Assembly: GCA_963920765.1 (NCBI GenBank)
Contig: OY987242.1
Span: forward strand, 21,290,002-21,354,001
Source of the DNA: Ulota crispa
Taxonomy: Eukaryota > Streptophyta > Bryopsida > Orthotrichales > Orthotrichaceae
Reading direction: 5' to 3'
DNA: 64,000 bases
Shown: positions 2,006 through 62,565 of the stretch, one piece after another
Layout: each line of letters starts with the position of its first letter
Numbering within the stretch: position 1 is the stretch's first letter
Notes under the pieces: model-generated
The model's input: only the letters and a program-made list of their open reading frames with translations
Databases searched by the model: none
What the model was told of the DNA's origin: nothing
Program-made: the position numbers and the translations under genes

Positions 2006-3233
2006 CTGTTGATTTATTGAAATCAACACAAACATAAATATATAACAAGTATCTACATGATGGAGATATCTCCATCAGGACACCGCAATCATTGGCCTGC
2101 ATATGAGGTTCCTCACAGCCTTGTGCGTGCTCATGAGCAAGGTCGTAATGTTCCTATGCTATACTTATGCAAGTTGGAGCTCAAAAGAGATTCACTAACA
2201 CTTATATCTTGAATGTGATGAAATAAAAGTTTAAAAATCATTGTTTGATTTGTCAACGAGTTGTTACTTGAGTCCAAAAGAGACTACAGTTCCAATAACT
2301 TTAGCTTAAGATTTTTTTCAATAGAGATAGGAAGGTCTTGAACATGATGTGCTCTTGCTTGATGTAGAGGCACTATTGGTGAGTCATCTTGAACTTGGTC
2401 ACTTTCTTCATAATTGGTAGTATGCTAAAAATCTTGTTGAATAAAAGTTGGATCTCTAGTATCTTTAGTATTCCATTTTCAATGGAGAGTACTCAATGAA
2501 GCCCGTGCTTGCCTTTCAAAATTGTTCTGTATATAAAGACTAATGGAGCGTCAAGTCATGACATCATTTTTTCCTAAGCATTGACTACAAGAACAAGTTT
2601 CTAAAGGCTCACTAGTTGAAGCAATTTGTTGCTTCTTCTCTCCCTTGGCATCATGGTTAGCATGCCTCTTCCTAATCTTTGGATGCACTAATTGAAATCT
2701 ACTTTCATTGTCCTTACAAGAACAATTACAACAACAAGGAACTTGAAGCGGTGTCTTGCAATATAAGTGATGAATGTAAGCCTTGTATGTATCAAAACAT
2801 GGTAGATGATGAAATGCAAAAAATTCAATAATTTAGTGTTTAGGAAAAAATGAGAATGTCACAAAAAACATACCTTGAATTTTCAAATGTTGTAGCCATG
2901 GACTAGTCAATGCAAGCAAAATAGTGTATGTCTTAGCACCATGAGATGTACTATAAATTATTGTAAATTACATGCATGTAGCATGAATTTGAAATGAAGT
3001 TATTGTAGCATGAATTTAATAAAGAATGCTTTTTCCTAACAATGTAATGATATTGGTTAAATCATATTAGCCTTTTAATTTAAAGCTTTCATTTTAACCC
3101 AATATTTATAGCCTTTTTATTTCAGCAATTTAATTTTAGCCTATTAAATTTAATCTTTAGTTTTTAATCTTCTAGTTGTAGTGTTCTATTGGTAACCTTC
3201 TATTCTTAGTTATTTTCTAATAGAAATCTTCTA
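2006..3233 (-). other. Mostly non-coding; Cys-rich coding-like relic on minus strand near 2565-2822
   Basis: On the minus strand from about 2822 down to 2565 a frame stays open and reads FHHLPCFDTYKAYIHHLYC, then PCCCNCSCKDNESRF and LETCSCSQCLGKNDVMT. The paired cysteines resemble the N-terminal zinc-binding part of CACTA-type transposases, but the match is weak and no start or end can be set. The rest of the interval is AT-rich with no gene visible; 3000-3230 is especially T-rich. Confidence 0.3.
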
Positions 3234-3897
3234 TCTATATTTATAAAAGAATCTCATGGGCTGTTTTGGACGAAAAGTAAAGAGTTTGAGTGCAACTATG
3301 AGTTGCATTCCACGCATGTAAATTACGCCTTTTACATTTCCTTTATTTAATAAGCTGCACCTTTTATATTTTCTATTGTTGCACCTTTTACATCTATATT
3401 AATAAATGAATAGCAGTCAGTCAATTAGTGCCTATCATGTAACAGCATTTTATCAATTAGGGTCAAACATAAGTTAGGTTTTGGGCATGACTAGAATCAA
3501 AAAGGGATACATGAATAAAATAAAATCACCTACAACTCTTTTATTTGCTTCATTAGGCGTTAACAACAAGTCACTGGCAGTTGCATTGTCACTAGCAATT
3601 GCACCACAACTTTCTCTTAGCCAAAAGAGGGAGCGGGAATAAGGGGGCACGAGAATAAGGGGGCACGAGGATAAGGATGCACGGGGATAAGGGGGCACAA
3701 AGATATGGGGACACGGGGATAGAAGACAAGGGGATAAAGGGGCACAGGGATAAAGGGGCACGGGGATAAAGGGGCACGGAGATAAGGGGGCACAAGGATA
3801 GATAGAGGGCACGAGGACATGGGGGCACAAAGATCAAGGAGCACGGGGATAGGGAGTGGGAGGCATAAACCCGTTGATACGACGGGTAGTATACTAG
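3234..3897 (+). mobile_element. Non-autonomous Helitron (copy 1)
   Basis: The left end reads TCTATATTTATAAAAGAATC directly after an A. The right end is a 6-bp stem hairpin (ACCCGT, 7-nt loop, ACGGGT, at 3869-3887) followed by AGTATA and then CTAG at 3894-3897, with a T outside. These are the three hallmarks of plant Helitrons: 5' TC, a subterminal 3' hairpin with CTRR, and insertion between A and T. At 664 bp it encodes no Rep/helicase. It carries an 18-bp G-rich minisatellite near its right end. Confidence 0.75.
3630..3862 (+). repeat. 18-bp G-rich minisatellite within Helitron copy 1
   Basis: About 12 imperfect copies of a unit like GATAAGGGGGCACGAGGA occur here. The C-rich opposite strand gives proline/cysteine-rich frames in all phases, which are artefacts of the repeat. 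A related array sits at the same relative place in the Helitron at 4073-4498. Confidence 0.85.
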
Positions 3898-3900
3898 TTT

Positions 3901-4072
3901 TCTATAATGATCAACCCGTGGGTACAACAGGTGAGTAAACTAGTATATATATAAAAGAATCCCAAGCTCCCATTTTGGATGAAAAGGAGAGAGTTTCAGT
4001 GTAACTATGAGTTGCATTCCATGCATGTGGCAATAAACATTAGTTTAACAAGTTGCACCATTTACATTCTCT
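3901..4072 (+). mobile_element. Helitron end cluster: extra 3' end and a truncated 5' end
   Basis: Positions 3914-3943 hold a second hairpin-plus-CTAG terminus (ACCCGT/ACAGGT stem, then GAGTAAACTAG). Directly after it, TATATATATAAAAGAATCCC with CATTTTGGATGAAAAGGA (3944-3990) matches the left end of the neighbouring copies. These look like remains of one or two further Helitrons packed between copies 1 and 2. Confidence 0.55.
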
Positions 4073-4498
4073 TCTATATAGATAAAAGAATATCATTTTG
4101 GATGAAAAGTAAAATAGAGTAGAGCAACAATAAAGTATGACAAATCATTGCAAATTACACCACAACACTCTCTTTTATTCACTTCACCAGATGTTAACAA
4201 GTCATTGATAGTTGCACCACAACTTTCTCATGGCCAAAGGGAGCATGGGGATAGGGGGCTGCAGAGATAGGGGGCATAGAGATAGGGAGCATAGGGATAG
4301 GAGAGCACAAAGATAGGGGGGTACAAGGATAGGGAGGGCACGAGGATAAGGGGCATATGGATAGTGCTAGCGGTTTGCAAATAAAACAATTTGAATTTTT
4401 AAAATTGGCACATTTTGTGATAAGTTTGCTATTGTGATAATTTTTTTGTTGCAAGGATGTTTTGTTGCCTCCATTGGTAGAACGGGTACATAAACTAG
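4073..4498 (+). mobile_element. Non-autonomous Helitron (copy 2)
   Basis: The left end reads TCTATATAGATAAAAGAATA followed by CATTTTGGATGAAAAG, as in copy 1. The right end is AACGGGTACATAA followed by CTAG at 4495-4498 and T outside; the left arm of the hairpin is degraded. It is 426 bp long and non-coding. A G-rich array at about 4233-4370 (GGGGATAGGGGGC-like units) is a diverged form of the minisatellite in copy 1, which shows that the repeat belongs to this Helitron lineage. Confidence 0.65.
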
Positions 4499-20698: not shown

Positions 20699-21605
20699 TT
20701 AACGGACCACGCGACTATATTTTGGTCACTGGGAGTGGTTTTTGGCCTGTAGGTTGAAATCACTTAATAATTTGGAATTTGGTCTTGAAGTATGCATGTG
20801 ATTTTAAGAATTTTGCATCCATTTAAAAGATAACAATGTAATTGGGTATGTGAGTTGATAAATAATGGTGTTTATACAGCATGGCTTCAAAATATGTATC
20901 CATTTTTTGTCAAAGATGGATCAAAGCAACAACACAATACATCAAATATGCAAGAAGAATGTCAAATTGCAATTGCACAATTCTAAAAAATTTCAAATTG
21001 CTTAAGAAATACGCTTGTAGTGTTTTCCTATGTGGAAGTAGTATAATTGTAGTATTTGAAAATCTACTAAAATGTTGTTGTCAGTTTGGCTTTAAAATTT
21101 GTCATCCTACATGTAAGGCCAATTCTTGATTATTTTCACCAACTGGATTTTCTAGAAAAATTATCAAATTTCTTATAGAACCGTTTTAGGGTAGCAAAGA
21201 AAGTGGGTATTTTTACCCTTTTTGTCCACTTAGCTACACCTTGTGATTGCTATTTTTGTCTATTTTGTGTGAAACTAGTCTTGTTGGAAAGGTGGGAAAC
21301 CCTACTTTTTAGAAATGTAAGGCTCTTCTCAATTGAAACTTGCATGAAAGCTTAATATTCAAAACTAAACAAGCATGAAATACAAGAGATTTTCCCCATA
21401 CAACTCACTCAATCATTATAATATTTCACCTCCAACGATAAATCTAACTGAAATTTTGGTGCTTTACAATAAATTAGGTGTACTTCCCATTTATACGGTT
21501 GGATTATTGAAAATGGGTCCATATTTGAGTCAACTCCAAATCTAAACTTACAGCCCCTGTTTTCAGTGGATTCTGTGAAAATGGGTGTGGTCGTTAAAGG
21601 GTTAA
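20699..21605 (+). mobile_element. TTAA-bounded element, ~900-bp family, copy A
   Basis: The left end is TTAACGGACCACGCGACTAT (somewhat degraded) and the right end is GGTGTGGTCGTTAAAGGGTTAA. It matches copy B (57764-58677) along its whole length, and copy C (53510-54413) in reverse, at roughly 80-85% by eye. A short frame at 20881-21129 (MASKYVSIFCQRWIKATTQY...) is also open in copy B (57954-58169). It has no recognised domain and may be a transposase relic or chance. Confidence 0.75.
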
Positions 21606-22825: not shown

Positions 22826-24665
22826 TTAACTCTTGAGCGCCCCAAAGATAATATACTGCATAGTTTGGGGAGAACTGATTTTTAGTTACAAGTTAGTCAA
22901 CCTTTCTTGAGAATTGATAAAATAAAATGAAAGTTGGCGGATTTGCTTCAGACCAAAAAGACATGGTTTCATGAAATCATGTGAGTTACAATTTTATCTT
23001 TAGAAAATCTAGCCAAAACTTGCACATGTAATGAGGAAATGGGTTGAATGAAATTTGAAATTATGGGAAATCAACCTATGAACTTTTCCATGGTAAGGAA
23101 ATTTTTTGACCTTCTACACAAAAATCAAATGTTTTTTAAACGTGCAAAAAGAACATCATCACTTCCCAAATGTCCAAACCATAGTATATTCTATCAAAAT
23201 CATGCCAAACCTAAAATTTACCTCACTCTTGCAAGCACTTACACGATGTCAAAGTTCAAAGAATAAAGAAAAGCAAGAAACAAGCCAGAGGTGGCTAGGT
23301 GGGTGAATGGGAGAGTGGGTGAGTAAGTGGGAGGGAGAGTGGGTGAGTAAGTGGGAGGGAGAGTGGGTGAGTAAGTGGGAGGGAGAGTGGGTGAGTAAGT
23401 GGGAGGGAGAGTGGGTGAGTAAGTGGGAGGGAGAGTGGGTGAGTAAGTGGGAGGGAGAGTGGGTGAGTAAGTGGGAGGGAGAGTGGGTGAGTAAGTGGGA
23501 GGGAGAGTGGGTGAGTAAGTGGGAGGGAGAGTGGGTGAGTAAGTGGGAGGGAGAGTGGGTGAGTAAGTGGGAGGGAGAGTGGGTGAGTAAGTGGGAGGGA
23601 GAGTGGGTGAGTAAGTGGGAGGGAGAGTGGGTGAGTAAGTGGGAGGGAGAGTGGGTGAGTAAGTGGGAGGGAGAGTGGGTGAGTAAGTGGGAGGGAGAGT
23701 GGGTGAGTAAGTGGGAGGGAGAGTGGGTGAGTAAGTGGGAGGGAGAGTGGGTGAGTAAGTGGGAGGGAGAGTGGGTGAGTAAGTGGGAGGGAGAGTGGGT
23801 GAGTAAGTGGGAGGGAGAGTGGGTGAGTAAGTGGGAGGGAGAGTGGGTGAGTAAGTGGGAGGGAGAGTGGGTGAGTAAGTGGGAGGGAGAGTGGGTGAGT
23901 AAGTGGGAGGGAGAGTGGGTGAGTAAGTGGGAGGGAGAGTGGGTGATGATTGACAGGATAAGAGATGCACTTGGTGCACCAATCCTTGGAGGACAAATGG
24001 AGCTCAAGTGTAAACCCTAGTTTTGGAAGCCCAAATCTTGACTCTCAACTCACATACTAACTAAACTCCAAAAAATGTGTGGACTTTCAATTTATAATCC
24101 AAAGTTTGCATTGGTTGGAGCTTGGGGGTAGCTTGATTGTTAAGTTGTTGTTGCCTTGGTCAATGCCTTGTTTTGCTATGTCATGCACATAGTAAGCAAA
24201 TGGTGGATCTTTTTGCAACATTTGTAAGAAGAAAAAAATTCAATATAATACATTGAAACTTGGATTTCAACCACACTAATTTTCTAAACTTAAGAAATCA
24301 ACTGAGTGAAAAAAAACAAAGGTCATTGGCTGACCAAAAAACACATGTCTAGGCTAGCTATGATTGATTTTAAAAAAAACCAAGTGGACCAAAGAAGATT
24401 AGGAAATGTACCAAGTTTTTTAAGAAACCTCCCAAACATTGGTATAATGTCTCTAGGGATTAGAAAATAGGGTCGTGGATTGTGCTAGTACAATGCACTG
24501 TAACTCGGATAGAGTGGTATGAGGGTGGCAAGGAGCCAGGTAATGGGGTTCTTATTGAGCATGATTGGTCTCACATGAGTTATCTTAGTTTTGTAAAAAC
24601 CATAGGCTTGTGAGTGTGAGTAGGTTTGCCTAAACTAGATTTTGAGCTGGACGCTCAAGAGTTAA
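22826..24665. mobile_element. TTAA-bounded element, 1.84 kb, carrying a minisatellite
   Basis: The left end is TTAACTCTTGAGCGCCCC. The right end read inward is TTAACTCTTGAGCGTCCAGC, so about 15 terminal bases match. The ends are close to those of 29718-30487 (TTAACCCCTGAGCGCCCC). The interior holds the 24-bp minisatellite at 23312-23944; without it the element would be about 1.2 kb. No transposase is visible. Confidence 0.65.
23312..23944 (+). repeat. Homogeneous 24-bp minisatellite, about 26 copies
   Basis: The unit GTGGGTGAGTAAGTGGGAGG plus GAGA repeats with no visible difference between copies. Its plus strand has no C at all and has three GGG runs per unit, so it could form G-quadruplexes. 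The period is a multiple of three, so stop-free frames appear in one plus and three minus phases; they encode only the repeat and are not called as genes. The uniformity points to recent expansion or strong homogenisation. Confidence 0.97.
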
Positions 24666-32650: not shown

Positions 32651-33665
32651 AAGTAGTAGGGCAATCCGACTTCCCGCCCTCCAGTTCTGTTCAAAAAACG
32701 AGAGCGCGGGTAGCCGAACGCAAAGCCCAGGCAGCGCCAGCGGGGCCTCGAGTGGGGGAACGAAGCAACAGTGCGGTGCCCTATGAGGCTCGGCCGCTGG
32801 GGAGCGTCATCGCTGACGTTGCTGCTGTGCTGCCGAGGCGGAGCCCGCAGTGAGGGGGACGAACAAGGCGACGGCTACGACGACGGCGACAACGACGACG
32901 AAGAGAGGCCGGAATTGAGGGACTTAGTAGTCGGCGAGCGATGCGGAGCCTCGACTGGGGGGCCTCTCCTCTGCCAAGGATCGCTACCCCGTACTCCTCA
33001 CTTGATATGCTCTCCGCTCTTTATGGATGCCAGTCATTTGCTCGGTCCAGGGGTACTAACGGGAGGAATGAGTGAGCGAGTGCTAGTTCAGAGCAATTCT
33101 TCCTTGTAAGTTACAGTGTGCTTCTTGTGTGAGAGACCTTTGAGGTGTCTGGTTGCGTAGGGTTTTGTGGAGAGTGTCTTTTGGTAATAAATTGCTTGGG
33201 AATGCGCTTTCTTAGAATTTCTGGATTCTTTTTCTTGTCAAGCGAGGGGTACGATGAGTCCTAGTGTTTCTGTTTTTTGAATAGTTCGGATTGTCTTTTG
33301 TTGAAGGAGATTTGAAGTTTCCGGTAGGTGAAGAAGTAGCACTAGTGTCTTGGATCTGATTGGGTGTTGCTGGGATAAACCGTACGAGAATGCGAGTTTT
33401 AGAGGTTCAGGAGTGAAGGGAGAGAGTCTTCTTGCTTGTGAAAGGGGGGATTTCTGAGCTTGTAGGTGCATTTGTCGGTGTTTTTATCGATTGGAGAGCT
33501 TGGGATAGCGAACGGAGAGGTGGTTTGGAGTTTGTAGTGTGATTGAAGAGCGCATTGGTTTTAGTCAGAGAGGGAAAAGTGCGCTCACGGAAAAAAGATG
33601 AGTTCGATTGCCATTGTCTGACACGGTAACTAGTGTCAAGAGCTGAAACGGTTGAGTTAGCGACA
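32651..33665 (+). promoter_or_regulatory. CpG-rich promoter / 5' leader of the VIM gene, probable leader intron
   Basis: From 32660 to 33110 the DNA is GC- and CpG-rich, with a GAC/GGC-rich tract near 32860-32900. A strong donor, CTTGTAAGTTA, lies at 33106/33107. It is followed by T-rich DNA up to the start codon, as expected for a first intron in the leader. The 112-codon frame at 32771-33109 ends at that donor and has no recognised domain; it could be an upstream frame. An in-frame TAA at 33627-33629 precedes the VIM start codon. Confidence 0.5.
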
Positions 33666-36600
33666 ATGGGGGACTTACCGTGTGACGCGGATGGGATGTG
33701 CATGGTGTGCAAAATTGTGCCACCCGATAGTGATGTGCTTATGTGCGGTAGTTGTGTTAGTCCCTGGCATATGCGATGTCTAAATCCTCCAATGGAGTCG
33801 GTGCCTCTTGGCGAGTGGGAGTGTCCGGATTGTTGTCTTCCTTTCGCGCCCTCAGTTGATGAGAAGCCCGCTGTACCACCTGTGGAGGACAATCTGATGA
33901 GCAAGATTCGTGCTATTCAAGCGAACAGGTCCTTTAATGAAGACGAGAAAGCGAAAAGACGGCAAGAGCTTATGAGCAAAGGCTTGCATGACGACGCGGC
34001 GGTCGTGAATAACAGCACGAAGTTCGCGGATGGAAAGAAGCGCAATGCGACTTTGGAAATGATGGACCAGAGTCTCAATTGCATTTTCTGTTTGCAGCTC
34101 GCTGAAAGACCGGTGACGGTATGTCTTTGTTTTCGGTTGTTATTGAATCTTTGATACCTTTGTTTGTTGTTTGTGTACAATCAAACGTGTTCCTGATGAA
34201 GTTAGAACTGGGAATGCAGACACCTTGTGGACACAACTTTTGCTTGAAGTGTTTCCAGCGATGGCTTGGGCAAGGTAAAAGAACTTGTGGAAAATGTCGA
34301 GCTTCGATACCTCCGAAGATGGTTACCAATCCTCGTATTAATTCTGCGTTAGTTATGGCGATTCGTATGGCCAGATCAGTTGGTAGTAACACCGGTGGTC
34401 CGCCAAAAGTTCATACTTACAGGGACAACGAAAGCAGACCTGACAAGTGTTTTACGACCAGCCGGGCGGTGAAGACTGGAAAGGCTAACGCCTGCAGCGG
34501 TAAAATATTTGTCACCATTGCACCTGATCACTTTGGCCCCATTGCAGCTGAACATGACCCCACCCGAGGCCAAGGAATTTTGGTGGGAGAGAGTTGGGAG
34601 GATCGCATGGAATGTAGGCAGTGGGGTGCGCATCTACCTCATGTCGCCGGCATTGCAGGGCAGTCGGATTACGGGTCGCAATCTGTTGCACTTTCCGGCG
34701 GTTACGAAGATGATGAGGATCATGGCGAGTGGTTTTTGTACACAGGCAGGTATGGTTTACGTAATCAGATATCTTGGGAATATCTCGGGGGCTCTACTGC
34801 AACTCTTTGTACCTGACTTGTCATTCGTGTTTATGCCCACTAATCGCGATGATACGCTTGCAGCGGCGGAAGGGATTTGAGTGGTAACAAGCGCACCAAC
34901 AAAGAGCAATCTTTTGATCAAAAGTTTGACAAGATGAACGAGGCATTACGTGTTAGTTGCAAACAGGGTTATCCCGTCCGTGTTGTGAGGTATGAGTCGC
35001 GTTTTTCTTACTTCTATCAAAGAACTGTCCTGTATAGATTTTAATCATTATCTCCCAAATTACAGTACATTTCTTTCAGAAAAAGAAGGATATGAGTTTG
35101 TGAGATGGCAGGCAGATAATGCGTTTCTAATGTTTGCACTACAAGCATATAGTGAAAGTCACGTATTGAATGTGAAGACACCATTTTATGTCGACTGCTG
35201 GCTAACTTTGGTCTCGCTCATTGCGCAGGTCACATAAAGAGAAGCGCTCAAGTTATGCTCCAGAAGGAGGTGTACGATACGACGGTGTATACAGGATTGA
35301 GAAGTGTTGGCGCAAGAAGGGGATGCAGGCAAGTTAGACGCCCATTTGTTGACACATTTCTGTTGTCAAGTTTAATTTTAACTTGTACATAATGGGACAA
35401 GCATGAACTGGGTCTGCAGCTGACTCGGATTCTGTTTTTTCCTCATCAATGTGTATTCAGGGCCCTAAAGTCTGCCGTTATCTGTTTATCCGCTGCGACA
35501 ACGAGCCCGCTCCTTGGACAAGGTTCTTGCTGATATATTGTGCATATGTATCTGCAGCTTTAGAAATTTCTTGTATGGACCGGCAGGGTGTCGTTGTGGT
35601 CCTGCCTGTGGTAATTTGTACTTTTATGTTTCGAGTGTTTGATCAGGTTTTTGAGTTCTGAACCGTGTTTGTTTCTAGGACCGGTGCTTGGAGTTCTTAA
35701 TATTGAATTGTCTCTATTGATCCTTACTAATGTGTTGGGTGCAGCTGGTTTATTTGTACGTTGTGTCATTATTAGAGGTTTGAGTACGCTTATCGTAGCT
35801 AGAATGAAAGTGTCTGGTTTTGGTTACAACTTTAATCAAGATAGATTTTGTTCACGAAGCCCTTGAGGTTCTTACCAATATGCTCTGTTTTGTGTTCTAG
35901 TGATGAGCATGGAGACCGTCCAAGACCTCTTCCTGTGGTAGACGAGCTAAAGTCCGCAACGGATGTATTTGAAAGAAAGTTGCCACCTGCCTGGGCGTAC
36001 CAGGTATGCTACTTGACTCTTCATGAAGTCGCAGAATGCTATAAAGTTGAAACGTTTCTAAGTTTAGTTTGTGTCTAATTTGGATTTCAGAAAATTTGTA
36101 ATCTGAAGTTCCAATACACTCATTTCAGTCCATTGTGCATTTGTTTTAGTGAAGTTAGTTTTTCTCTAGCTCTGTTGAACAGCATAGTTTTGCATTTGTG
36201 TGGCACGTATTGATTGTGAGAGCCGTGATTGAGGCACACTTTGTGTCATTATAGGAGGGGGCAGGATGGGGATGGATTCGGCCACCTCCGGTTAGCAGGA
36301 AGACTTCAGGAGGGGGCCCTAGTGAGGCAACACAAAAGCGGAAACAACTTAGTGTTCAGCAACGCCTACTCAAAGGTGGCAATTTTAACCACCCTCTGAT
36401 TTGTCGATCTCATTCGTTGATTATTCAGGCAGCCCATCATGTATGAAGGTTGGTAGAATACTGGTTGCTTTTGAAAGTTTTCATTTAACGCAAATTATAT
36501 GCAATCCGTGTACTCTAGAGGTTTTTGGTGTCGAAGCTGCAGAACTCTAGAGAAATGTTTGAGCTATTCTCTCTGGTTTATCCGTTTTGCTTAGGACCTT

Positions 36601-41612: not shown

Positions 41613-43244
41613 TTAGAGTTGTTGCAACTGACGTTGTTGAAAAAGAGGTGTTATCATGTTGTCTTTCATTGCTTGAATTTGAAAGTCTTTGTCAAATGCA
41701 TCTAACAAGCCTGCTTGCTTCCATCCTTTCAAAATCATATCTTGTTTTTCAAAAACATAAAACCATGCCTTGTGTAACCAACCGCATAGAAGAGGTTTGA
41801 TAGTGGACATTTTGAAGTCCAATGTTGCTTCCTCTCCATTGTCTAATTGCTTGGTGATGCTGGCCATGGTCCATGCTTTGAATTGTAGCATAAAAGCATG
41901 TTTTAAAGGCCTTTGAATGATGATGTCGGCTGGTTGTAAAACACTTGTACAATTTGCTGGAATAAATAGTACCAAAATTTATAGATGCTTTTTCTTGATC
42001 CAAGACAAGAATTCTTCTGATTTGTGTATTGACCAGCAATCTATCAACCATATAAGTGGTTGATTTCTTGGTAAGTCTAACTCCTTAGCCTTTGCAACTC
42101 TGTAAATCTCCAAAATGTTTCTTACAAAATCTTTGCAAGTCTGAAGAGTTGACCAATGATTGCTGCTAGTTGTTAAATCCCATCCAAGACCTTGGCAAAG
42201 TTGACGACCTTCATTTAGCAATGGTAAAGATCAGAAGGTAGTGCTTGTGAAAACAACTTGTAAAGGGAGTAAAATACCTTCTGCTATGGAGGACACAACT
42301 GCTGTAATTTGTCTTTTGTCTTCTTTGCCATGGACAATGACTTGTTTAGATCCTTTCTTCTCCCATGTCCTTGATCCTCCTATTGGCACTAAATGAATAC
42401 CAGTTTGATCTGAATTTACCACAAGGGAAGGAGGGATATCATGTAATTTTGACAGATAAGCAACTCTTTGTGCCATCTTTTTGCCTTGGTCTTCCCAATC
42501 CTTGGGTAGTTTTCTTGCAACTGAAATGGAAGCTTGGTAACTCCAGTTAAGACTTTTTTTGATAAAACTCCTTGTCCACTCAATAGAAACCTTGAATCTT
42601 GTTGTAGAAACAAAATCTAATAAGTGTGGCACTCATTTTTGAATGATAGCCTTTATCAAAGGTTGTATTGTTGTTCCATAGAGTGGTTGTCTAACCTCTC
42701 GTTGTTTTTTTAGGATAGAAACAATCTCACTTTCTACCTCAGGATGTTTAGAGAGAATTGGTAAATGTTGAGAAGCTTTTGTGAAGATTGTTTCATCTTG
42801 CACACAATGTTTGTATTTCTCTCTAAGCATACCAGTAGAGGTGAACCATCCATATAATGTACTCTTTCTCAATCCATCATAAACACTATGGATTTGTCCT
42901 GGCTCTTTATAAGCAGCTCGTAGATAAAGCAAAGCAGCATTATAATTTCTATGATGCTTCATAGTAGCATAAATTGGGTGCCACAAAGAACAAGAGAACC
43001 AATTGGTATAAGAACCTCTGACCTTTGTTGTCTTCATTGACTTCTCCAACTTGGGCTTCAGCAGTTGTAGAATAACTTCACTTTTTGGACGCCCAACCCT
43101 CTTCTTTGATGATGTTACCTTTGGCAATTGTTTCATCTCCACTTCAGCACTGAACACCTTCAACTCGTGGGAAATAGAGACAAACCTCTCATTTTTGCTA
43201 ATAGAGCTAAACAAGTTACTAATCATCAATTGCTTCTTGGCCAT
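41613..43244 (-). pseudogene. DDE_1-type transposase, one reading register with three stops
   Basis: One frame of 543 codons runs from ATG at 43244 to the final stop at 41613, without any frameshift, but is cut by stops at codons 204 (TGA), 338 (TGA) and 422 (TAA). Order of parts: a basic AT-hook-like segment (KKRVGRPKSE), a helix-turn-helix-like region (VYDGLRKSTLYGWF), then the DDE_1 catalytic core. The catalytic aspartates are in VVNSDQTG (residue 279), LIDCWSIHKS (402) and PANCTSVLQPADII (440), a spacing of about 37 residues between the last two. The catalytic motifs are all kept, so inactivation is recent relative to the copy's age. Two stops could arise from CGA by C-to-T change at methylated CpG. 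This is the product that would cut and join the 39724-43575 element. Confidence 0.88.
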
Positions 43245-44171: not shown

Positions 44172-45102
44172 TTAACCCCTAAATCCCTGAGTGTCCCCTC
44201 GAAGGACAAATGGGATTTTGGGCAAGTACATACAGCCTCAATTTTTGTTCTGATTTTTTGAAACTTCTTTTGAAGATAGGACAACACATTAGCTTTTGGG
44301 GAATATAAATCTTATTCCAATCAATGCCCAAAAGCAAAATTTATGCCTAGATAAGCAAAACTTTATGCAAATTGGGCAGCAAAAAAAATTACAATAACCT
44401 GAATTTTTTGATTTTTTTTGTTTTTTTACTCAGGTTTTAGTTTTGTCTACATCTGAAGCTTTGATCCATTCCATTTGGACTAGTATGAGAAAGTTATGGA
44501 CAATCTTGTTTTTTGGGCAGTTCAAGCATCTTCTTGAAAAAATAACTTATAAACTTCATTTTTAAATGCAAGTTTAACATTTTTTCAAAAAAAATTGTTG
44601 GAAAGGGTGAAGTTTGCTTGCTAGAACAATCTCACCATTGGGATTATTGTGTTTCAATTCCATTTCAAGGTTGTTGTCAATTTATGTTTTTGTTCAATTT
44701 TAGACCTTCTTCTACCTAATGTTTTTTTTAAGAATGAAAATTAAGTATTTTTTGTTTTGGTTCTTTTCGAAAGATTCTCAACTCAATTTCCCACCTCAAA
44801 AAAATAAACCTCAAAACTTTGTGGTGCAAAAAATAGAAGTTAAAAAAGTTCAAAGTCAAGTAGTCTAATAATGCAAGGTGCAAAAAAGTTTGTTTTTTAC
44901 ACTTTGAATGCAAATATCTTGCAATCTATGCAATCAAAGTTTTTGAATTTTTGTTTCCACATTTTTATACTAGTCTAGTACAAGATCCTATGGTTAGATA
45001 TGCAAAAGGACCAATTGTCAAAAAAAAACTACTCTTTTCAATAGAAATGGCTTATTTGAGTGTCTTTTGACAAAATAAAGGCCCCAAGGATTTAGGGGTT
45101 AA
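44172..45102 (+). mobile_element. TTAA-bounded element, 931 bp, ~930-bp family
   Basis: The left end is TTAACCCCTAAATCCCTGAG and the right end read inward is TTAACCCCTAAATCCTTGGG. It is the reverse-orientation relative of 61642-62565: both share CTTGTACTAGACTAGTAT and TTTGTCAAAAGACACTC words. It has no gene. Confidence 0.85.
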
Positions 45103-47119: not shown

Positions 47120-47855
47120 TTAACCCCTAAATCCCTAAGTGTCCCCTCGGGGGACAATGAGATTTTGGGCAGGTACCTATGACTAAACTACTTTGCGTGA
47201 TCTTTTGAAACTTTTATGGAAGATGGGGAATTTGAAGATCCGTGTGCACATCTAATTTTTTTTTTCATATGGACATTTTTTGAAGAAGTAAAACATGAAT
47301 TTCTGAATTTTTTTGGAGATAGGGCAGTCTGGGCAGCCCAAATTTTTTTTTAAAAAATTACATTTTTTTGAAATAAAAATCTGAAATTGGTTCTTTGAGT
47401 TTACATATACATGGGAAGCTTTGAATCACTCGTTTCTAGTAAATGAAATGAAAGTTATGAGGACTTTTAGTAACCGGTAGATATGAAGCCATATCTACCA
47501 GTTAACTAAAAGTCCTCATAACTTTCATTTCATTTACTAGAAACGAGTGATTCAAAGCTTCCCATGTATATGTAAACTCAAAGAACCAATTTCAGATTTT
47601 TATTTCAAAAAAATGTAATTTTTAAAAAAGTTTTTGGGCTGCCCAGACTGCCCCATGTCCAAAAAAATTTCAGAAATTCATTTTTTACTTCTTCAAAAAA
47701 TGTCCATATGAAAAAAAATTAGATGTGCACACGGATTTTTGAATTCCCCATCTTCTATAAAAGTTTCAAGAAATCACGCAAAGTAGTTTAGTCATATGTA
47801 CCTGCCCAAAATCTCATTTGTCCCCCGAGGAGACACTCAGGGATTTAGGGGTTAA
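47120..47855. mobile_element. TTAA-bounded foldback element with 366-bp arms
   Basis: The arms 47120-47485 and 47490-47855 are mirror images at roughly 95% by eye, separated by a 4-nt loop AAGC (GGTAGATATG-AAGC-CATATCTACC). Both ends read TTAACCCCTAAATCCCT inward. Each arm matches the left ~356 bases of the 48363-49297 element, so the foldback seems to be two inverted half-copies. A transcript through it would form a long double-stranded RNA. Confidence 0.95.
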
Positions 47856-52865: not shown

Positions 52866-53509
52866 TTACATTTAGAATCTTTCTAAATGTAACTAAGACT
52901 CTTACCTTAGCAAAGGGTTGGAGATGAATGTTAAAGATAGAAAGATAAAAATAGTTAAAGCAATTCTATTTTTATGAAAAGATTGATAAAATAAGATGGG
53001 ACTCGGAGGGTGAGGAAATTAATTCTTGTTGGGAATTAATCTCTCTCTATGGTCGGGTGGTTGAGCTCCTTCTAGTTTTTATAGTTTATAGTGTATAGAT
53101 TATTATTATTTTATATGAGTGTTTGGATGATTGAAGTTACTGACCGTGGGAGGTACATAACAAGGGCTCAAAGTCTGCCGACCTTGTTTTGCAATAATGA
53201 GAAAAAGTTGTTTTTCTCACTTCAAACATTATAACCTTACAATCTACGTGGTCAAATGGGCTGAATTTTTTTTCACACTTTGCCTTACTTGTATATTACA
53301 CTTCTATAAAATTGAAACTCAAAAAAAAGTTTTCATTTTGAATTTTAAATAAATCATCAAAAATTGACAGGTTTTGGTCTTATTTTTCTTTGCAACACCC
53401 TTTGGGCTTTAGGGATTAAGTCATCTATGGTGTCAAAGTTATAGCCATAAATTTTTCATCTTCATCCTTCAGCATACATTTTTTGACGTTATTTAAACCT
53501 TAACCCTTT
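52866..53509. other. Intergenic, no gene; possible lone element end near 53415
   Basis: GGGCTTTAGGGATTAAG near 53405-53421 resembles a decayed TTAA-element right end with no partner. Otherwise featureless. Confidence 0.35.
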
Positions 53510-54413
53510 AAAGACCATACACATTTTCACAAAATCCATTAGAAACTGGGGTAGTAAACTTGGATGTGTGTTTGAATCAAATATGAACCTAATTTCAATA
53601 ATCCAACCGTGCAAATGGGAACTACACCTTGTTTACTATAAATTATCAGAATTTCAACTAGATCTACCATTGGAGGTGAAATATTATAATGATTGAGTGA
53701 GTTGTAGGTGGAAAATCTCTAGTTTTTGTGCTTGTGTGGTTTTGGATCTTACTACCTCATGCAAGCTTTGTTTGAGAAGAGCCTTATATTTCTAAGAAGC
53801 AAGGTTTCTCAACTTTCCAATGAGACTAGTTTTACACATAATGGATAAAAATAGCAATCACAAGGTATATCTAAGTGGACAAAAAGGGTCAAAAACCCCA
53901 CTTTATTTGCTACCCAAAAATAGTTTTACAAGAAAATTGATAAATGCTATGGAAAATCCAATTGGTGAAAACAATAAAAGATTGGCCTTAAATGTAGGAC
54001 AAATTTTTTTTAATATGAAATGATAGCACCATTTCAATAAATCTTCAAATATTACAATTATACTACTACCCTATAGAGAAACAATACAAGCGTACTTCTT
54101 GAGGAATTTGAAAAAATTTAGGACCGCACAATTGATATTTGACATTCTTCTTGGATGTTTGATGTTTTGTATTGTTGCTTTGATCCATCTTTGACCAAAT
54201 ATGGATACATCTTTTGAGGCCATGCCGTGTAAACATCATTATTTATCAACTCACATGCCTCATTTCATTATTTTTTATTTGGTTGGATGCAAAATTCTTG
54301 TGAGCACAAGCGTTCTTCAAGACTGATTTCCAAATTGTTGAACGATTTTACTCTATAAGCTAAAAACCACTCTCCCAAACCAAAATATGGTTTGGTGGTC
54401 TCTAAAGGGTTAA
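53510..54413 (-). mobile_element. TTAA-bounded element, ~900-bp family, copy C (reverse)
   Basis: The left end is TTAACCCTTTAAAGACCATA and the right end is GGTCTCTAAAGGGTTAA. In reverse complement it aligns along its length with copies A and B, including the TGGTCAAAGATGGATCAAAG region that codes for the short shared frame in A and B. Confidence 0.88.
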
Positions 54414-54838: not shown

Positions 54839-55544
54839 TCAACCCTTAGATGGTTGGTTTATGAGCCTCTTACCTTAGCATGGGCCTAACACTATTTTTG
54901 TGAATCTTCTCACAATTTGAGATACTTATAAATATGAGTACATTTAATTTGGTTGATTTTTACCTTCCATGATGAACCATGTTTCCATGATCACTTTTTA
55001 AAAAATGGATGAAGAAACTGTCTTACATCCAGTGGACTGTATTTTTGACATTCATTGGACAATAAACGTCAATAAATGTCCACATTGGCTTATAAGGCTT
55101 AACCAACATTTATAAACCAAAACCAAATACCAATCCCAACTCCCACTATCAATTTTCATGCTAAACCCAAAATCGTCTACTAATAATCACCTAAACTAAT
55201 CATCTTCAAAAATTGATCAAGAAAAACAAAAACTAAATTACATGTAAAGAGGTCAATGCCATGGTGCAGAGTGACACTATATTATGGAGCCTCCGCTAAA
55301 ATCTTTTTTTCTCTTCTGTACTTAAAATTTGATGTTTGTGATGATTTTTGCAATGATGAATATTGACTGTAAACATCCATGATCTCTAAGGGACGGTTCA
55401 CACTACATCCCACTTCCCATTTCCATGGTTTTATCTTAACGTGAGATCCCAACTTTGTTAGGTTATTAACGCTTCATTGCCTAAGCGGATAAAATTGGGC
55501 CTATTTATTGTGTGCTATGAAATCCGTTAACTATGAGGGGTTAA
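54839..55544. mobile_element. Probable TTAA-type element, 706 bp, containing MITE-like sequence
   Basis: The right end is TATGAGGGGTTAA (55532-55544). The left end is TCAACCCTTAGATGG, with TTAA decayed to TCAA. It shares GTTTATGAGCCTCTTACC and GGTTCACACTACATCCCA words with the 16723-17130 region. It abuts the next element through one shared TTAA. Confidence 0.5.
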
Positions 55545-56456
55545 CCCCTAAAGGACCAAGCTAAGTTTTCATCAAAACTGCTCCAAAAATGCCATATATA
55601 GTATAAGTACCAAATTTTAGAAAGAAAACATTTTTGGACATATACAAATTGGAAGACTTGTTGTACACTAGTTTCAAAAGATTAAAAAAAAATCTCAAAA
55701 TTGTTTGCCATGTAGATTGTAAGATATTTGAGTTTGAATTGACAAAAAGTCATTTTTTGATCCTGCAAAACTTGGGCAGGTGCACTTCACAAGGTCACAT
55801 TTCTGTATGAATTTTTTTCCAAACTGGTTGTAACTCTTTGGATTCATCATTCTTCAAGGCAAGTTGGATACACACTTGAATATTTTCAAACCATTTGGAT
55901 TTGTATAACACAAGGAAAAAAATAGTAACAAAAAAGTAGCAAAAAATGATTCAATTTTTTTTGTTAAGAGTTTAATTATGGAAATGAAAAATGCCAATCC
56001 CAAAAATGATAATTTCCTAATAAACAATCCACATCCTTTGGTTTTATTTTTATTTCAAAATATTGAAAACTGAGAAAAACAAAGGGCTTCAAAATTTATT
56101 AGTAGAGAATCTATAACTACCCGCAAGCAAAAACTCCTCATAAGTCTCATCTCATTGATAAAAATGGAGTAATTTAAAGCTCTCCACATACACATATGTC
56201 TCCTAAACTAATTTCAAGTATTTGTTTCTAAAAAAAGTGATTTTTTCTAATCTACCCAAATTGCATGCCTTGGGAAAGAAACCATACATTTTTACTTATA
56301 GTTCAAAATGTCATGAAATTTAGTGCATATGAAAGACATTCCTTGTCCCCACCTTCTATTACAGTTTTTGCCTAAAATATAGAAATCTCCAATCACAAGT
56401 ACATGCCCAAAATTGCTATGTTGCCCAAAAACATAGCTTGGTCCTGTAAGGATTAA
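55541..56456 (-). mobile_element. TTAA-bounded element, 916 bp, ~930-bp family
   Basis: The left end is TTAACCCCTAAAGGACCAAG and the right end is GGTCCTGTAAGGATTAA. The interior contains the reversed family core (CAAAAACTCCTCATAAG, then AAAGCTCTCCACATA). Confidence 0.82.
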
Positions 56457-57763
56457 ACTAGCCCTTTGGTTGCAAGAATGACTCACTAAATCTCACGTTG
56501 GACTAAATGATTCTAACACCTTGTTTGTCGGGACAAGGTGAAAAAGCTTTACATTTTTACATGCCAAAAGATGTAAGAGCAGCTCCATTGCACACTCAAA
56601 CAAGAACTAATCTGCTACTTTAGTGGCAAGAGTGGGAATTGGATCTTCCACCGCATGCCTGCAACTTGTCTCTAGATATTGTGGACAACCGCTACAAGTG
56701 CTCGTTCATGCTACTCTCAAGGTCTTTGGAGAGCATGCTACAACTCACGAGAGGGCTCAAATCTGTTGACTTTCTAGGTGGTGAGAGAAGAAGGGACGAA
56801 GTAGCGTGAGTGCGCAGTGGAAGTGCTCTAAAAGGGTGGAGCCGGTACATGAAGTGGCCTGCCTTGTGGCCCTCCAAATCTTTGATCACGTTTGTTGTAG
56901 CGGGAAAGGAGTGGAGCTGCTCTAAGAGTTTACAATTTATCACTAGGAAATTGAATTTGGAAATTTTAAATTTACATTAGAATTCACAGACCTCGTATAA
57001 GTAAATCTAGAGAAGAATAAAAATAACCAACTCTAAAATAGGGGCACATTCTTACTTTGTCCCTTTTTCATAAAGTACTGGAGTTATTTTACTTTGGCCC
57101 CACAAACAAAGTGTCAGCCATTAAGGTCAGTGTGAGTTTTAGTGAAATCCGTTGCAATTTTCAATTAAGTCTGGTACTTTTTATAATAAAATATCCATTA
57201 ACTGGGGTGCTTTCAAGCTTTGACAATGGCTTGCTTTACGATTGGATTCACGAAAGGTCCAAGACTCCAAGGCTGCCAAAGTCACAAATATGAAGATCTT
57301 AGATGCTCTCAAAGTATGGGCCACTTGGAGGCACATTTAGTGAACACGATAGATAGTGAAGGTCAACTACACTGAATATTGTATTTAGGTTGCCTTGGCA
57401 ATTAAGCTTAGGTTGCTTTACCCTAGTAAGTTACCTCAGGCCTCATTACTTGACCACTTGGAGGTACATACAACTCACTAAATATTTAGATTTCATATGG
57501 TCTGTGACTTGGAAGTCACTAGTTTGTTTTTTTGTTGCTTCATTGTTGTTGATAAACTATCTAAAAATGGTTTGTTGCATTGATTTTTGATGAAAGATAC
57601 TGTAGTAGCAGCAAATATTTATATAGTGTGAAATGTCAATAAATTAGTGTGGGGCAACCTAAATGCAATATTCAGTGTAGGTTTTCTCTTTTCCGACCCA
57701 TTGTCATACAAACTCCAGTCAAACTGTTGGTGTACTTGAAAGCAAAATTTCTCCATTAACCCA
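56457..57763. other. Intergenic, no supported gene
   Basis: 56570-56930 is slightly GC-richer, but its minus-strand frame has no recognised motif. The rest is AT-rich. Confidence 0.4.
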
Positions 57764-58677
57764 ATAACCCTTTACGGACCATGCAACCATATTTTGATTG
57801 CTGGGAGTAGTTTTTGGCCTATATATCAAAATCGCTCAATAATTTGGAAATTGGTCTTGAAGTAAGCTTGTGATCACAAGAATTTTGCATTCATCTAAAA
57901 AAATAACAATGGAATCAGGTATGTGAGTTGACAAATAATGGTGTTTATACAACATGGCCTCAAAATACGTATCCATTTTTTGTCAAAGATGGATCAAAGC
58001 AACAACACAATACATCAAGTATGCAAGAAGAATGTCAAACTTCAATTGTACAATCTTTAAAAATTTCAAATTGCTTAAGAAATACGCTTGTATTGTTTTC
58101 CTATACGGTAGTAGTATAATTGTAGTGTTTAAAGATCTACTAAAATGGTGTTGTCATTTAATTTATTAAATTTGACATCCTACATAGAAGGCCAATTCTT
58201 GATTGTTTTCACCAATTGGATTTTCCATAACAATTATCAAATTTCCTGGAGAGCATTTTAAGGGTAGTCAAGAAAGTGGGATTGTTGACCCATTTTGTCC
58301 ACTTAGCTACACTTTGTGATTGCTATTTTTATCTATTTTGTGTGAAACCAGCCTTATTGGAAAGGTGGGAACCTTGGCTTTTTAGAAATGTAAGGCTCTT
58401 TTCAATCAAAGCTTGCATGAAGCGTTAACATCCAAAACCACACAAGCACAAAAACTAGAGATTCTCCACATATGACTCACTCAATCATTATAATATTTTA
58501 CCTCCAACTGTAGATCTAGTTGAAATTTTGGTGTGTAACAACAAACAAGGTGTCCTCACCATTTGTATGGTTGGATTGTTCAAATTGGGTCCATATCTAA
58601 TTCAATTGCACATACACATTTGTCATCCTTAGTTTTAGTGAGTTTTCTGAAAATGGGTGTGGTCCTTAAAGGGTTAA
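57764..58677 (+). mobile_element. TTAA-bounded element, ~900-bp family, copy B; first unit of the end-to-end array
   Basis: The left end is ATAACCCTTTACGGACCATG (TTAA decayed to ATAA) and the right end is GGTCCTTAAAGGGTTAA. It aligns with copy A along the whole element. The short frame at 57954-58169 (MASKYVSIFCQRWIKATTQY...) is close to that of copy A. Confidence 0.85.
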
Positions 58678-59062
58678 CCCCTAAATGCCCATGAGGACAA
58701 TTATCGTCCTTTGGCCCTAAAAAAAAATTGTACAACAAAAAAAAGCCATTTTTCATCTGTATTTTTTTCCAAAGTGACCGTAAACACATGATCCATCATA
58801 GAAGACAAAAGACCATTGTATCAAATATGTTCATATTTTTAAGTAACCCAAATTGTGAGAAAATTCAATATCATGGTGTTAGGTCCCAAGGTGCCCTTAT
58901 TGCAATTTTCATGAGGTCGACATGCACTATTGACTTTTGAAACTTTTAAAAGCAATACTATTGGTGCCCATCAACCAAAACATTGTTGGAGCTATAGTAT
59001 AAGTATTGTTGAACCTACAATGTGGGTAGGCCACGGCCACCCAGCGGTCCTTTAAGGGTTAA
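58674..59062. mobile_element. TTAA-bounded element, 389 bp; array unit 2
   Basis: The left end is TTAACCCCTAAATGCCCATG, sharing its TTAA with the right end of copy B. The right end is GCGGTCCTTTAAGGGTTAA. It has no gene. Confidence 0.78.
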
Positions 59063-59716
59063 CCCCTCACCACCCAAGGGGCCCAAATCGGGCCTCTCAA
59101 AATTTCATTTAGAGATACCCGACCTTCTTTTAAGATTTCTTTTAGTGATTATTATTATTATTTTTAATTTTTTATTGAAGTTTAGATGCAACATTAGGAG
59201 TCTGATCTTGAAAATGAATTAAAGTGATTTGTCTATTCAAGATTTTGTGCAAGGGTGTCCATTGCATATCTTCACTTTCTAGTGTTGAAGGCTCTTGGAA
59301 ATGAGCCTCAAGTACACTAGAACTTGGAGAAAAAACCACATTAAAAATTCAATTTAGAAAATTGTAGAATAGATATTGAGAAGCCATAAATTAATTGGAG
59401 TTATGCAAGTTATACTTTACATACTTGTATTTTTTTGGTACCCTCAATTTTAGGTTTGAGATGTAAAAAGAGGATTGAAAGACTTCAAATCACTTTTGCA
59501 GTTTTAGCACCCTCATGATCAAACATTATAATCTTTCAATCCATAAGTGATATTGTTGTGATTTATTTTCCTATGTGACCTACAACATGTCTATTTTGAA
59601 TTTATACAGTTGCGCTTCAGAATAAAATTGATAAGATTGATTAAAGTTTCGGCATTTTGTTCACTTTCAAGCAAATTTTGAGATACTCAAAAGTACCATG
59701 GGCAGTGAGGGGTTAA
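59059..59716. mobile_element. TTAA-bounded element, 658 bp; array unit 3
   Basis: The left end is TTAACCCCTCACCACCCAAG and the right end read inward is TTAACCCCTCACTGCCCATG. The TTAA at 59059-59062 is shared with unit 2. Confidence 0.82.
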
Positions 59717-59719
59717 CCC

Positions 59720-60458
59720 TTAACCCCTCAAGGCCCAAGGAGCCTTTTTTATGTTGTCTAGGGAATTTGGGCAGGTCACTGGAAAAAGTTTTTCATTTTT
59801 TTTTAAACTAAATTTTCATACACAAAGTACCCAAGGAGTAGCTACGAGGCCCAACAATTTTCATGACTTTTGACCTCATGGTTCAAAAGTTATTGCATGA
59901 TATGTTGTTTTCTTTGCTCGACAGGGCAGCTCGGGCAACTCAAAAACTTCTTTAAAAATTACATTTCAAGTTTGGCTTTCTATTAATTGGTTTTTTAGAT
60001 CTATATATACGTAGGAAGCTTTTAATCATTCAATTTCCATTAATGAGATGAAAGTCATGACAAGTTTTAGTTTGCCAATAGACGTGGAGTCTACCTACCG
60101 GCAAACTAAAACTTGTCATGACTTTCATCTCATTAATGGAAATCGAATGATTAAAAGCTTCCTACGTATATATAGATCTAAAGAACCAATTAATAGAAAG
60201 CCAAACTTGAAATGTAATTTTTAAAGAAGTTTTTGAGTTGCCCGAGCTGCCCTGTCGAGCAAAGAAAACAACATATCATGCAATAACTTTTGAACCATGA
60301 GGTCAAAAGTCATGAAAATTGTTGGGCCTCGTAGCTACTCCTTGGGTACTTTGTGTATGAAAATTTAGTTTAAAAAAAAATGCAAAATCTTTTTTGTAGT
60401 GACCTGCCCAAAATCCCTAGGCAATACTAAAATGGCTCCTTGGGCCTTGAGGGGTTAA
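59720..60458. mobile_element. TTAA-bounded foldback element, ~365-bp arms; array unit 4
   Basis: Both ends read TTAACCCCTCAAGGCCCAAG inward. The arms 59720-60083 and 60089-60458 mirror each other almost perfectly around GTGGA. Only CCC separates it from unit 3. Like the 47120 foldback, the arm apex carries the family core (GGAAGCTTTTAATCATTCAA, then GAAAGTCATGACAAG). Confidence 0.93.
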
Positions 60459-61409
60459 CCCTTAAAGAACTAAGCCCTTTTTTCTTTCAAAATCACTAAA
60501 AATTGCCCACTTTTGGGGGAATGAGTAGAAAGGTAGGAAAACAAGTTTTTTTGGAAATCCAATCAAAAGATCTTGCCTTAGACTATGGGAGGTACTTGTG
60601 GGAAAAGAATTTGCTCATTCTAGATGTAGAAGAGTGAGATGTTGACATCTAAAATGAAAAACAAAGTTTTTTTCCCTGCTGCCCAAAAATTTCAGAAGCC
60701 TTTGACGGCTCTTGTATCAAAAAAATTGATGTACGCAAAGTTGAGGTTTACTATTCCCATGTAGAAGACCAAGTTATGTCAGTGTGGAAGAATTTTCAAA
60801 TGAATTGGAGGTGTGAATCATACTTTGTAAAATCTTGCAATGCCGGAAGGCCATGAAATTTGCATGTACACTAGGCAAACTTGGAGGATTTATGTAAGAT
60901 TGAGAGATCTAAATTACTTTGATCCAAATGGTGAAATCCAAGGAATCTTAGTCTACTACAATTGGGAAAAACAAAAAAAGTCAAAAATAAAATACACAAA
61001 GAGCTCAAAAAAGTAAAGTAATAAAGCTTACAAGGGGCAAAAAGAATGGAGGTTTGGGAGTCCCATACCTACCTACAAACTAAAACTTCTCAATTATCAA
61101 TTAGAATTGAATGGTTCAAAGCTTCCCACATATATGTAAATGTAAATAACCAATTTCAGATTTTTATTTGACAAAAAATGCAATTTTAAAGAAGACTTTT
61201 GGACTGCCTGCCCTCCTCTGTTTTCAAAAATTCATACATAACTTCTTCAATAAATCTTGGAATGAAGAAAAAATCAGATGCCCATGTAGATCTTTTAATT
61301 CCCTATCTTCCGTAAAAGTTTCAAATAGTCATACAAAGTAATTAAGCTGTAGATACAAGTCCAAAATCCCATTTGTCCTCCAAAGGGGCAATGGTCCTTT
61401 ATGGATTAA
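60455..61409 (-). mobile_element. TTAA-bounded element, 955 bp, ~930-bp family; array unit 5
   Basis: The left end is TTAACCCTTAAAGAACTAAG and the right end is GGTCCTTTATGGATTAA. In reverse it matches 48363-49297. The TTAA at 60455-60458 is shared with unit 4. Confidence 0.85.
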
Positions 61410-61645
61410 CCCCTGAAGGACCCTCGGGCTCTGAAGATACGGTACCAAATATGGTTGCAATCAATATTCAGAAGTTTGAATCAGCTAGAAATTAAGCGTT
61501 ACAAGCTTACAACCATACATATTGATGGGTTATACGATGGTGGGTGCATAAATTTTTCTGGAAAACCCTCAGAGTATGTCAAATACGTTTGTACATATGA
61601 CCGTACATACGGCCGCAAAGGGCATTTGGGCCGTTCACAGGTCAA
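61406..61645. mobile_element. TTAA-bounded element, 240 bp; array unit 6
   Basis: The left end is TTAACCCCTGAAGGACCC and the right end read inward is TTGACCTGTGAACGGCCC, a decayed mirror. The right TTAA is now TCAA. Confidence 0.65.
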
Positions 61646-62565
61646 CCCCTAAAGGACCATGGCCTTTATTTTTGTCAAAAGACACTCAAAATTGCCACTT
61701 AAATGGCAAAGAGTAAAAAAATTTGAAAATTGGTCTTTTTGCATACTTGACCATAGGATCTTGTACTAGACTAGTATGAGAATGTGTCGTTCAAAACTTA
61801 AAAACTTTGACCACACAGATTGCAAGATATTTGGGTTTAAAGTGTAAAATACAAGCTATCTTGCACCTTGCACAACTAGATTATTTGACTTTGAACTTTT
61901 TTAACTTCAATTTTTTGCACCATGGAGTTTTGAGGTTTAGTTTTTTATGGAGGGGAATTGAGTTGAGAATCTTTGGCAAAAAACCAAAATAAAAAATACC
62001 TAATTTTCATTCTTAAAAAAAACATTAAATAGATAGTCTGAGATTGAACAAAAACTTACATTGTTAATAACCTTGCAATGGAATTGAAACACAATAATCC
62101 CAATGGTGAGATTGTTCTAGGAGGCAGTCTTCACCCTTTCCGATAGTTTTTTTGCTAAAATGTTAAATTTGCATTCAAAAATGAAGTTTATAAGTAATTT
62201 TCAAGAGGATACTTGAGGTGCCTGAAAAACAAGATTGTCCATAACTTTCTCATAACTAGTCCAAATGGAATGAATCAAAGCTTCAGATGTAAATGAAGAT
62301 ATAATCTACAAGGAAAAAAAATATTTAAAAAAAAATCAAACTTTTGTAATTTTTTTTTGCTGCCCGAACCCTCCAAATTTTTGCTTATTTGGACATAACT
62401 TTTGCTACTTGGCATCAATTGGAATAAAATTTATATTCCTCAAAAGCTAATGTGTTTTCCTGTCTTTGAAAAAAAATTCAAAAAATCAATACAAATTTTG
62501 AGACTGTAGATACTTACCCAAAATCTCATTTGTCCCCGCATGGACAATGGTACTTTACGGGTTAA
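61642..62565 (-). mobile_element. TTAA-bounded element, 924 bp, ~930-bp family; array unit 7
   Basis: The left end is TCAACCCCTAAAGGACCATG and the right end is GGTACTTTACGGGTTAA. In reverse it aligns with 44172-45102. It is the last unit of the array; the DNA beyond has no TTAA-type end. Confidence 0.83.

Follow-up and report, generated by a model that had tools for sequence, protein, structure and literature searches.

Seven abutting piggyBac-like MITEs in the moss Ulota crispa and the probable use of element ends as insertion targets

Introduction

How do seven transposable elements, each bounded by TTAA, come to lie end to end in a plant genome? The question is raised by a window of 64,000 nucleotides (the whole stretch of DNA that was analysed) from the moss Ulota crispa. 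A preliminary description had seen seven end-to-end TTAA-bounded units in this window, and direct reading of the edges and junctions confirms it. Positions 57764-62565 consist of seven elements with TTAACCC...GGGTTAA ends, abutting in series from a left edge of ATAACCC at 57764 to a right edge of GGGTTAA at 62565.

The explanation that we regard as probable is that seven independent non-autonomous MITEs of the piggyBac type inserted successively at end or near-end TTAAs, with ends favoured as targets. An attraction of insertions to ends, if real, would let DNA transposons limit and cluster themselves, with old stacks preserving a record of arrival. A preference for ends is also a testable statement on the choice of TTAA by piggyBac enzymes, which are widely used gene-delivery tools. 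In addition, the array draws attention to a plant genome rich in piggyBac-type elements.

Structure of the array

The units are listed below in window coordinates, with the strand where one was assigned.

57764..58677, plus strand: unit 1, a 914-bp element of the family with the TIR TTAACCCTTTAAGGACC; the window has two further copies, 20699-21605 (84%) and 53500-54412 (81%)
58666..58669: subterminal site of unit 1, a TTAA 8 bp in from the right end; empty here, filled in many other copies
58674..59062: unit 2, a 389-bp element whose own two ends agree at just 14 of 18 positions; relative at locus L042 (unit positions 1-356, 87%)
59059..59716: unit 3, a 658-bp element; relatives at L032 (full length, 79%) and L031 (positions 1-606, 86%)
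59720..60458: unit 4, a 739-bp fold-back, 95% self-complementary; partial relatives only, among them the fold-back at 47120-47855 (71% over 345 bp)
60455..61409, plus strand: unit 5, a 955-bp element; full-length relatives at L033 (82%) and L035 (80%)
61406..61645: unit 6, a 240-bp element; relatives at L045 (full length, 81%) and at L033 and L040 (positions 1-232)
61642..62565, plus strand: unit 7, a 924-bp element; relative at 44204-45100 (unit positions 3-894, 82%)

The six junctions read as follows.

58671..58680: units 1/2, GGGTTAACCC
59056..59065: units 2/3, GGGTTAACCC
59710..59726: units 3/4, GGGTTAACCCTTAACCC, which is GGGTTAACCC plus an extra TTAACCC
60452..60461: units 4/5, GGGTTAACCC
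61403..61412: units 5/6, GGATTAACCC, with one change
61639..61648: units 6/7, AGGTCAACCC, with the TTAA itself mutated

Thus, GGGTTAACCC is present at four of the six junctions (58671, 59056, 59710, 60452), and the other two carry mutated forms. The preliminary description had given one junction as CCC between two TTAAs and the other five as a single shared TTAA. The former is the junction at 59710-59726; among the latter, the TTAA at 61639 is mutated and the junction at 61403 has one change. An end-motif score was built from 18 other ends, and under a strict cut three of the four GGGTTAACCC junctions pass on both sides, while the right side fails at 59056. A further GGGTTAACCC lies outside the array at 55538-55547 and is end-like on its right side only.

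The ends begin with TTAA followed by CCC, and paired ends agree at 14-18 of 18 positions, with 14 as the threshold of the mechanical end-pair search. This search returned 11 pairs in the window versus 3 in the reversed and 3 in the complemented sequence. The search recovers units 1-4 and pairs the left end of unit 5 with the right end of unit 7; because of this joining, the boundaries of units 5-7 were taken from family copies. The single 2.1-kb element spanning units 5-7 that the pair-finder suggested was rejected, as units 5, 6 and 7 each have their own relatives. The window has 34 copies of TTAACCC versus 9.5 expected, and 34 was attained by 0 of 100 dinucleotide shuffles. No ORF of at least 110 aa (start ATG, GTG or TTG) is found in 57764-62565.

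The 11-bp TTAACCCTTAA stands on both sides of unit 4 (59713-59723 and 60455-60465), and on both sides of no other unit of the array. This pair may be a long target duplication or a doubled end. The doublet of the odd junction at 59713 is also present at L034, where an ordinary subterminal insertion explains its form. At L033, an extra TTAACCC precedes the relative of unit 5. The window holds two long fold-backs, unit 4 itself (59720-60458, 95%) and the one at 47120-47855, which is 93.5% self-complementary. Immediately before unit 1, at 57756-57763, lies TTAACCCA, which includes a TTAACCC 8 bases upstream of the left edge. It is perhaps an 8-bp remnant of the end of another element; no matching remainder was recognised by eye.

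Assignment to the piggyBac type

Judged from their sequence, the units look like piggyBac-type MITEs. As given in parts of PMC2872659, such MITEs have a terminal repeat of approximately 12-19 bp that starts with CC[C/T]T. The ends in Ulota start in this way, with a looser fit for those that have CCCC instead of CCCT. The units are short (240-955 bp) and non-coding, and the family of unit 1 is high in copy number, with 2,117-2,412 first-look candidates, of which 40 copies were scored. Solitary copies show the TTAA target site duplication: TTAA is found at both ends in 14 of the 16 solitary unit-1 family copies whose flanks are both readable and unfilled. The exceptions are TTAG at one end of L059 and ATAA at both ends of L084 (= L003). 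The possibility, raised earlier, that single units elsewhere might lack TTAA at their ends is not borne out for this family.

A potential source of transposase is present in the same genome. The piggyBac transposase domain PF13843 matches 120 genome stretches; 110 contain one or more internal stops. Introns were left unmodelled in this count, in which some of the stretches are parts of a single gene. Two transposase loci, L009 and L018, are 90% alike over approximately 4,000 bp, and the likeness ends one base past TTAACCCTTCATTGCC, which resembles the ends of unit 3. Another locus, L014, has TTAACCCTTCACCGCC on one side. Overall, a TTAACCC-type end is found in 3 of 20 transposase loci, on one side only, and none in the examined flanks of the other 17. 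Mobilisation of the MITEs would depend on piggyBac transposases encoded in this genome and acting in trans.

Independence of the units

Relatives of each unit were sought in the remainder of the window and in all retrieved loci except L001. Full or near-full-length relatives exist for units 1, 3, 5 and 6, and relatives cover positions 3-894 of 924 in unit 7 and 1-356 of 389 in unit 2. These six units have relatives elsewhere with identical or near-identical boundaries, and unit 4 has distant or partial relatives only. Among the seven, only units 4 and 5 align with each other, over 109 and 90 bp, and therefore at least six families are present, in keeping with the "at least four sub-families" counted earlier. 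The best relatives of units 2, 3, 5, 6 and 7 and the unit-1 copies within the window are 79-87% identical, so the array units are not recent. Unit-1 copies outside the window reach 95% identity.

In all, 86 loci were compared, a non-random sample in which the majority had been chosen for a link to unit 1, to transposases or to GGGTTAACCC. A stretch of at least 200 bp of some unit is present in 59 of them, and nine have two or more units. The unit order of the window was seen in 0 of the 86. Since six units recur apart and never in this order among these loci, both a composite and a tandem duplication are rejected for this array; the preliminary description had already denied the latter. An origin from tandem duplication or one composite element could draw on the same-family tandems at L070 and L078 and on L031 and L033, where relatives of units 5 and 3 adjoin again, in another order or orientation. 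However, adjacent units in the window are of different families that recur apart, and we consider this origin highly improbable. At L070 and L078, unit-1 family copies lie next to like-oriented ends of their own family and are apparently true tandems. At L035 (1503-2811), a unit-5 family copy is nested in a copy of its own family, approximately 46 bp from its end.

Abutting ends across the genome

Genome-wide, GGGTTAACCC occurs 3,258 times versus 161 in the reversed control, and TTAACCC occurs 94,222 times versus 65,105. By a hand estimate from 705 TTAAs in 114 kb (including this window), the genome has approximately 1.7 million TTAAs. With CCC on 2.8% of TTAA sides, a hand calculation gives approximately 1,300 double-sided sites under independence, and the observed count is approximately 2.5 times this. 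Among the first 15 GGGTTAACCC loci on contig C1, judged at a 99% null cut, 8 are end-like on both sides, 5 on one side and 2 on neither. These junctions on C1 unite different kinds of end, which, together with the recurrence of the units apart, supports the earlier reading of repeated insertion into end TTAAs.

Array length was gauged by a simple model of stacking that allows for regional clustering. Settings that yield 2,484-4,440 junctions give 0-1.25 arrays of seven or more units per genome. In terms of this model, the seven-unit array exceeds the prediction, and would be either an extreme case or a sign that the model underrates the heat of some sites. Such arrays had been called unusual. 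This one is an extreme of a habit of the whole genome; it is a long and rare example of a frequent process and not a unique structure.

Filling of end and interior sites

Three TTAAs of the unit-1 family, one of them interior, were compared by whole-genome exact counts. GGG precedes 70 of 531 terminal TTAAs, 97 of 571 subterminal TTAAs (eight bases inside the end) and 2 of 300 interior TTAAs approximately 320 bases in. The patterns that gave 531 and 571 do not allow G at one flank base, whereas the GGG counts do. As a correction, a fifth of flanks was assumed to have G at the excluded base and the end denominators were multiplied by 1/0.8, giving rates of 10.5% (terminal), 13.6% (subterminal) and 0.7% (interior). 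The GGG rates accordingly range over approximately 10-13% for the terminal and 14-17% for the subterminal site. With corrected denominators, both end sites differ from the interior site (Fisher p 2e-13 and 5e-10). When the same base is excluded from both counts on C1, filling is seen at 16 of 97 subterminal sites.

Among the terminal GGG cases are elements that had themselves inserted next to an older neighbour, as well as some GGGs due to chance. When 67 terminal flanks were read, six had GGG, two of these not end-like; by eye, the same flanks showed seven foreign ends and one same-family end. A set of 40 unit-1 copies (the window and 39 loci) was also classed by eye, with some ends not visible; the unclear right ends of L056, L068 and L076 and the same-family tandems L070 and L078 were not scored as filled. 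Terminal sites were filled in 10 of 80 cases, subterminal sites in 9 of 80 and three interior sites in 3 of 120 (p 0.007 and 0.015), an approximately five-fold contrast between ends and interior. These results support the view that the ends of the unit-1 family are hot and that the hottest site found lies inside the terminal repeat. The earlier proposal that ends are preferred landing sites holds in the counts for this family, but the strongest spot lies eight bases further in.

Insertions into the subterminal site are nested in at least part of the cases. At L004 and L005, the inserted element is followed by the severed end of the host copy, with both halves present. The outer half of the split site, TTAACCCTTTAACCC, occurs 255 times genome-wide versus 4 in the control. 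Among the matches listed, it lies 70-1,789 bp away in the right direction for 19 of 42 inner halves (97 inner halves in total), versus 0.2% in a shifted-coordinate control. An exact outer half was not found for the other 23 of the 42, and none was seen in L008; mutation could account for those missing. At least 19 of the 42 subterminal cases checked are therefore nested insertions with both halves. The nine subterminal insertions in the 40-copy set have nine different end sequences, which counts against one amplified composite. The preliminary wording "abutting rather than nested" was thus half right, since insertions nested just inside the end are no less common than exact abutments. At L005, the terminal TTAA of the host is followed by CCCC, perhaps another end.

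Possible causes of the end preference

Successive insertion, the preferred reading, would proceed as follows. Insertion requires a TTAA, and each inserted element has one per end, with an additional TTAA 7-8 bases inside the end in some families. Later elements enter these end and near-end TTAAs, as the counts show for the unit-1 family. As TTAA would be retained after insertion, a stack could grow unit by unit. The terminal repeat, perhaps bound by transposase, would be the favoured target. Ends and near-ends of the unit-1 family are used far more than the one interior TTAA counted, and the heat of the ends may come from transposase bound there, from a wider sequence context or from the persistence of broken copies. 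A possible, still tentative, extension makes terminal repeats landing pads for their own kind: transposase on a resident end would steer newcomers to the TTAA in or beside it, and families would capture each other, stack linearly and lose mobility, in a self-limiting and clustering mechanism.

Could abutment arise without any preference? As elements number in the tens of thousands, their end TTAAs form a sizeable share of all TTAAs, and random insertion with regional clustering would bring ends together. The observed 3,258 junctions are only 2.5 times the approximately 1,300 expected, and simulations without end preference yield 513-1,881. Against this stand the fillings in one family (2 of 300 interior versus 70 of 531 terminal and 97 of 571 subterminal), and no array of five or more appeared in these simulations in four runs per setting. 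Chance is thus quite unlikely as the explanation. Survival, which we rate as unlikely though a little less so, follows from cut-and-paste mobility. An insertion that breaks the terminal repeat would block excision of the host, so that such copies are kept and intact or internally hit ones are lost. This would favour subterminal over interior hits, yet an insertion at the outermost TTAA spares the repeat and terminal sites are over-used too.

A local base preference of the transposase, for C before and G after TTAA, is doubtful as the cause but deserves more weight than the two preceding ideas. The terminal repeat holds a near-ideal target, CCCTTTAAGG. In 107 flanks of solitary insertions, from two sets sharing some copies, C is found at -1 in 46% versus a background of 18%, with weaker enrichment of C at -2 and -3. 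An additive context score of four bases per side, built on few sites, gives 11 for the subterminal site and a background mean of 1.1. However, the interior control scores 7.4 and is hardly used, whereas the terminal TTAA averages 1.3 and is filled about a tenth of the time. As terminal and control sites score in the wrong order, local preference alone, as modelled, is not the explanation, within the limits of this small additive score. The other two interior sites of the 40-copy set score poorly (0.27 and 0.54). In human cells, piggyBac uses TTAA only in particular wider contexts, according to parts of PMC3078864.

Relation to known systems

Clustered and nested plant MITEs of another superfamily were reportedly described by Jiang and Wessler in 2001, with the idea of a "safe haven". 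Coral CMITEs, as presented in parts of PMC2872659, resemble the Ulota units in their TTAA target duplication, CCC-type terminal repeats, short length and lack of coding sequence, and some are arrayed. The coral arrays, however, consist of highly similar elements and are ascribed there to replication slippage, whereas the Ulota array joins different families, mostly by one shared TTAA. The SaTar arrays of non-autonomous MULEs in guayule and rice are closer in layout, with unrelated plant elements joined linearly (sections of PMC5907723), as is also found in Ulota. The SaTars, in the same sections, have 8-11 bp duplications, are microsatellite-linked and are un-nested in more than 300 clusters. 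In contrast, the Ulota junctions are GGGTTAACCC or mutated forms and not microsatellites, solitary copies of the unit-1 family have the 4-bp TTAA, and nesting occurs just inside the ends. Linear arrays of unrelated elements are thus already known, and the TTAA-sharing form is a variant. Carrot DcSto elements, of another superfamily, are MITEs landing in or beside MITEs, and the sections seen of PMC3695323 describe no terminal-repeat hot spot. In the literature searched, no paper combining piggyBac, TTAA, MITE and moss was found, and parts of PMC4744444, PMC10619864 and PMC12550479 contain nothing on piggyBac elements in mosses.

Other features of the window

Three neighbouring ORFs lie on the minus strand at 41613-43244; a weak DDE_1 match, short of the curated cut-off, was obtained for one of them and no match for the other two. 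The region 23239-24020 is repetitive and several of its reading frames are open; the translations look like those of a minisatellite. At 33633-34816, PHD, RING and SRA domains are encoded, resembling the plant protein ORTHRUS.
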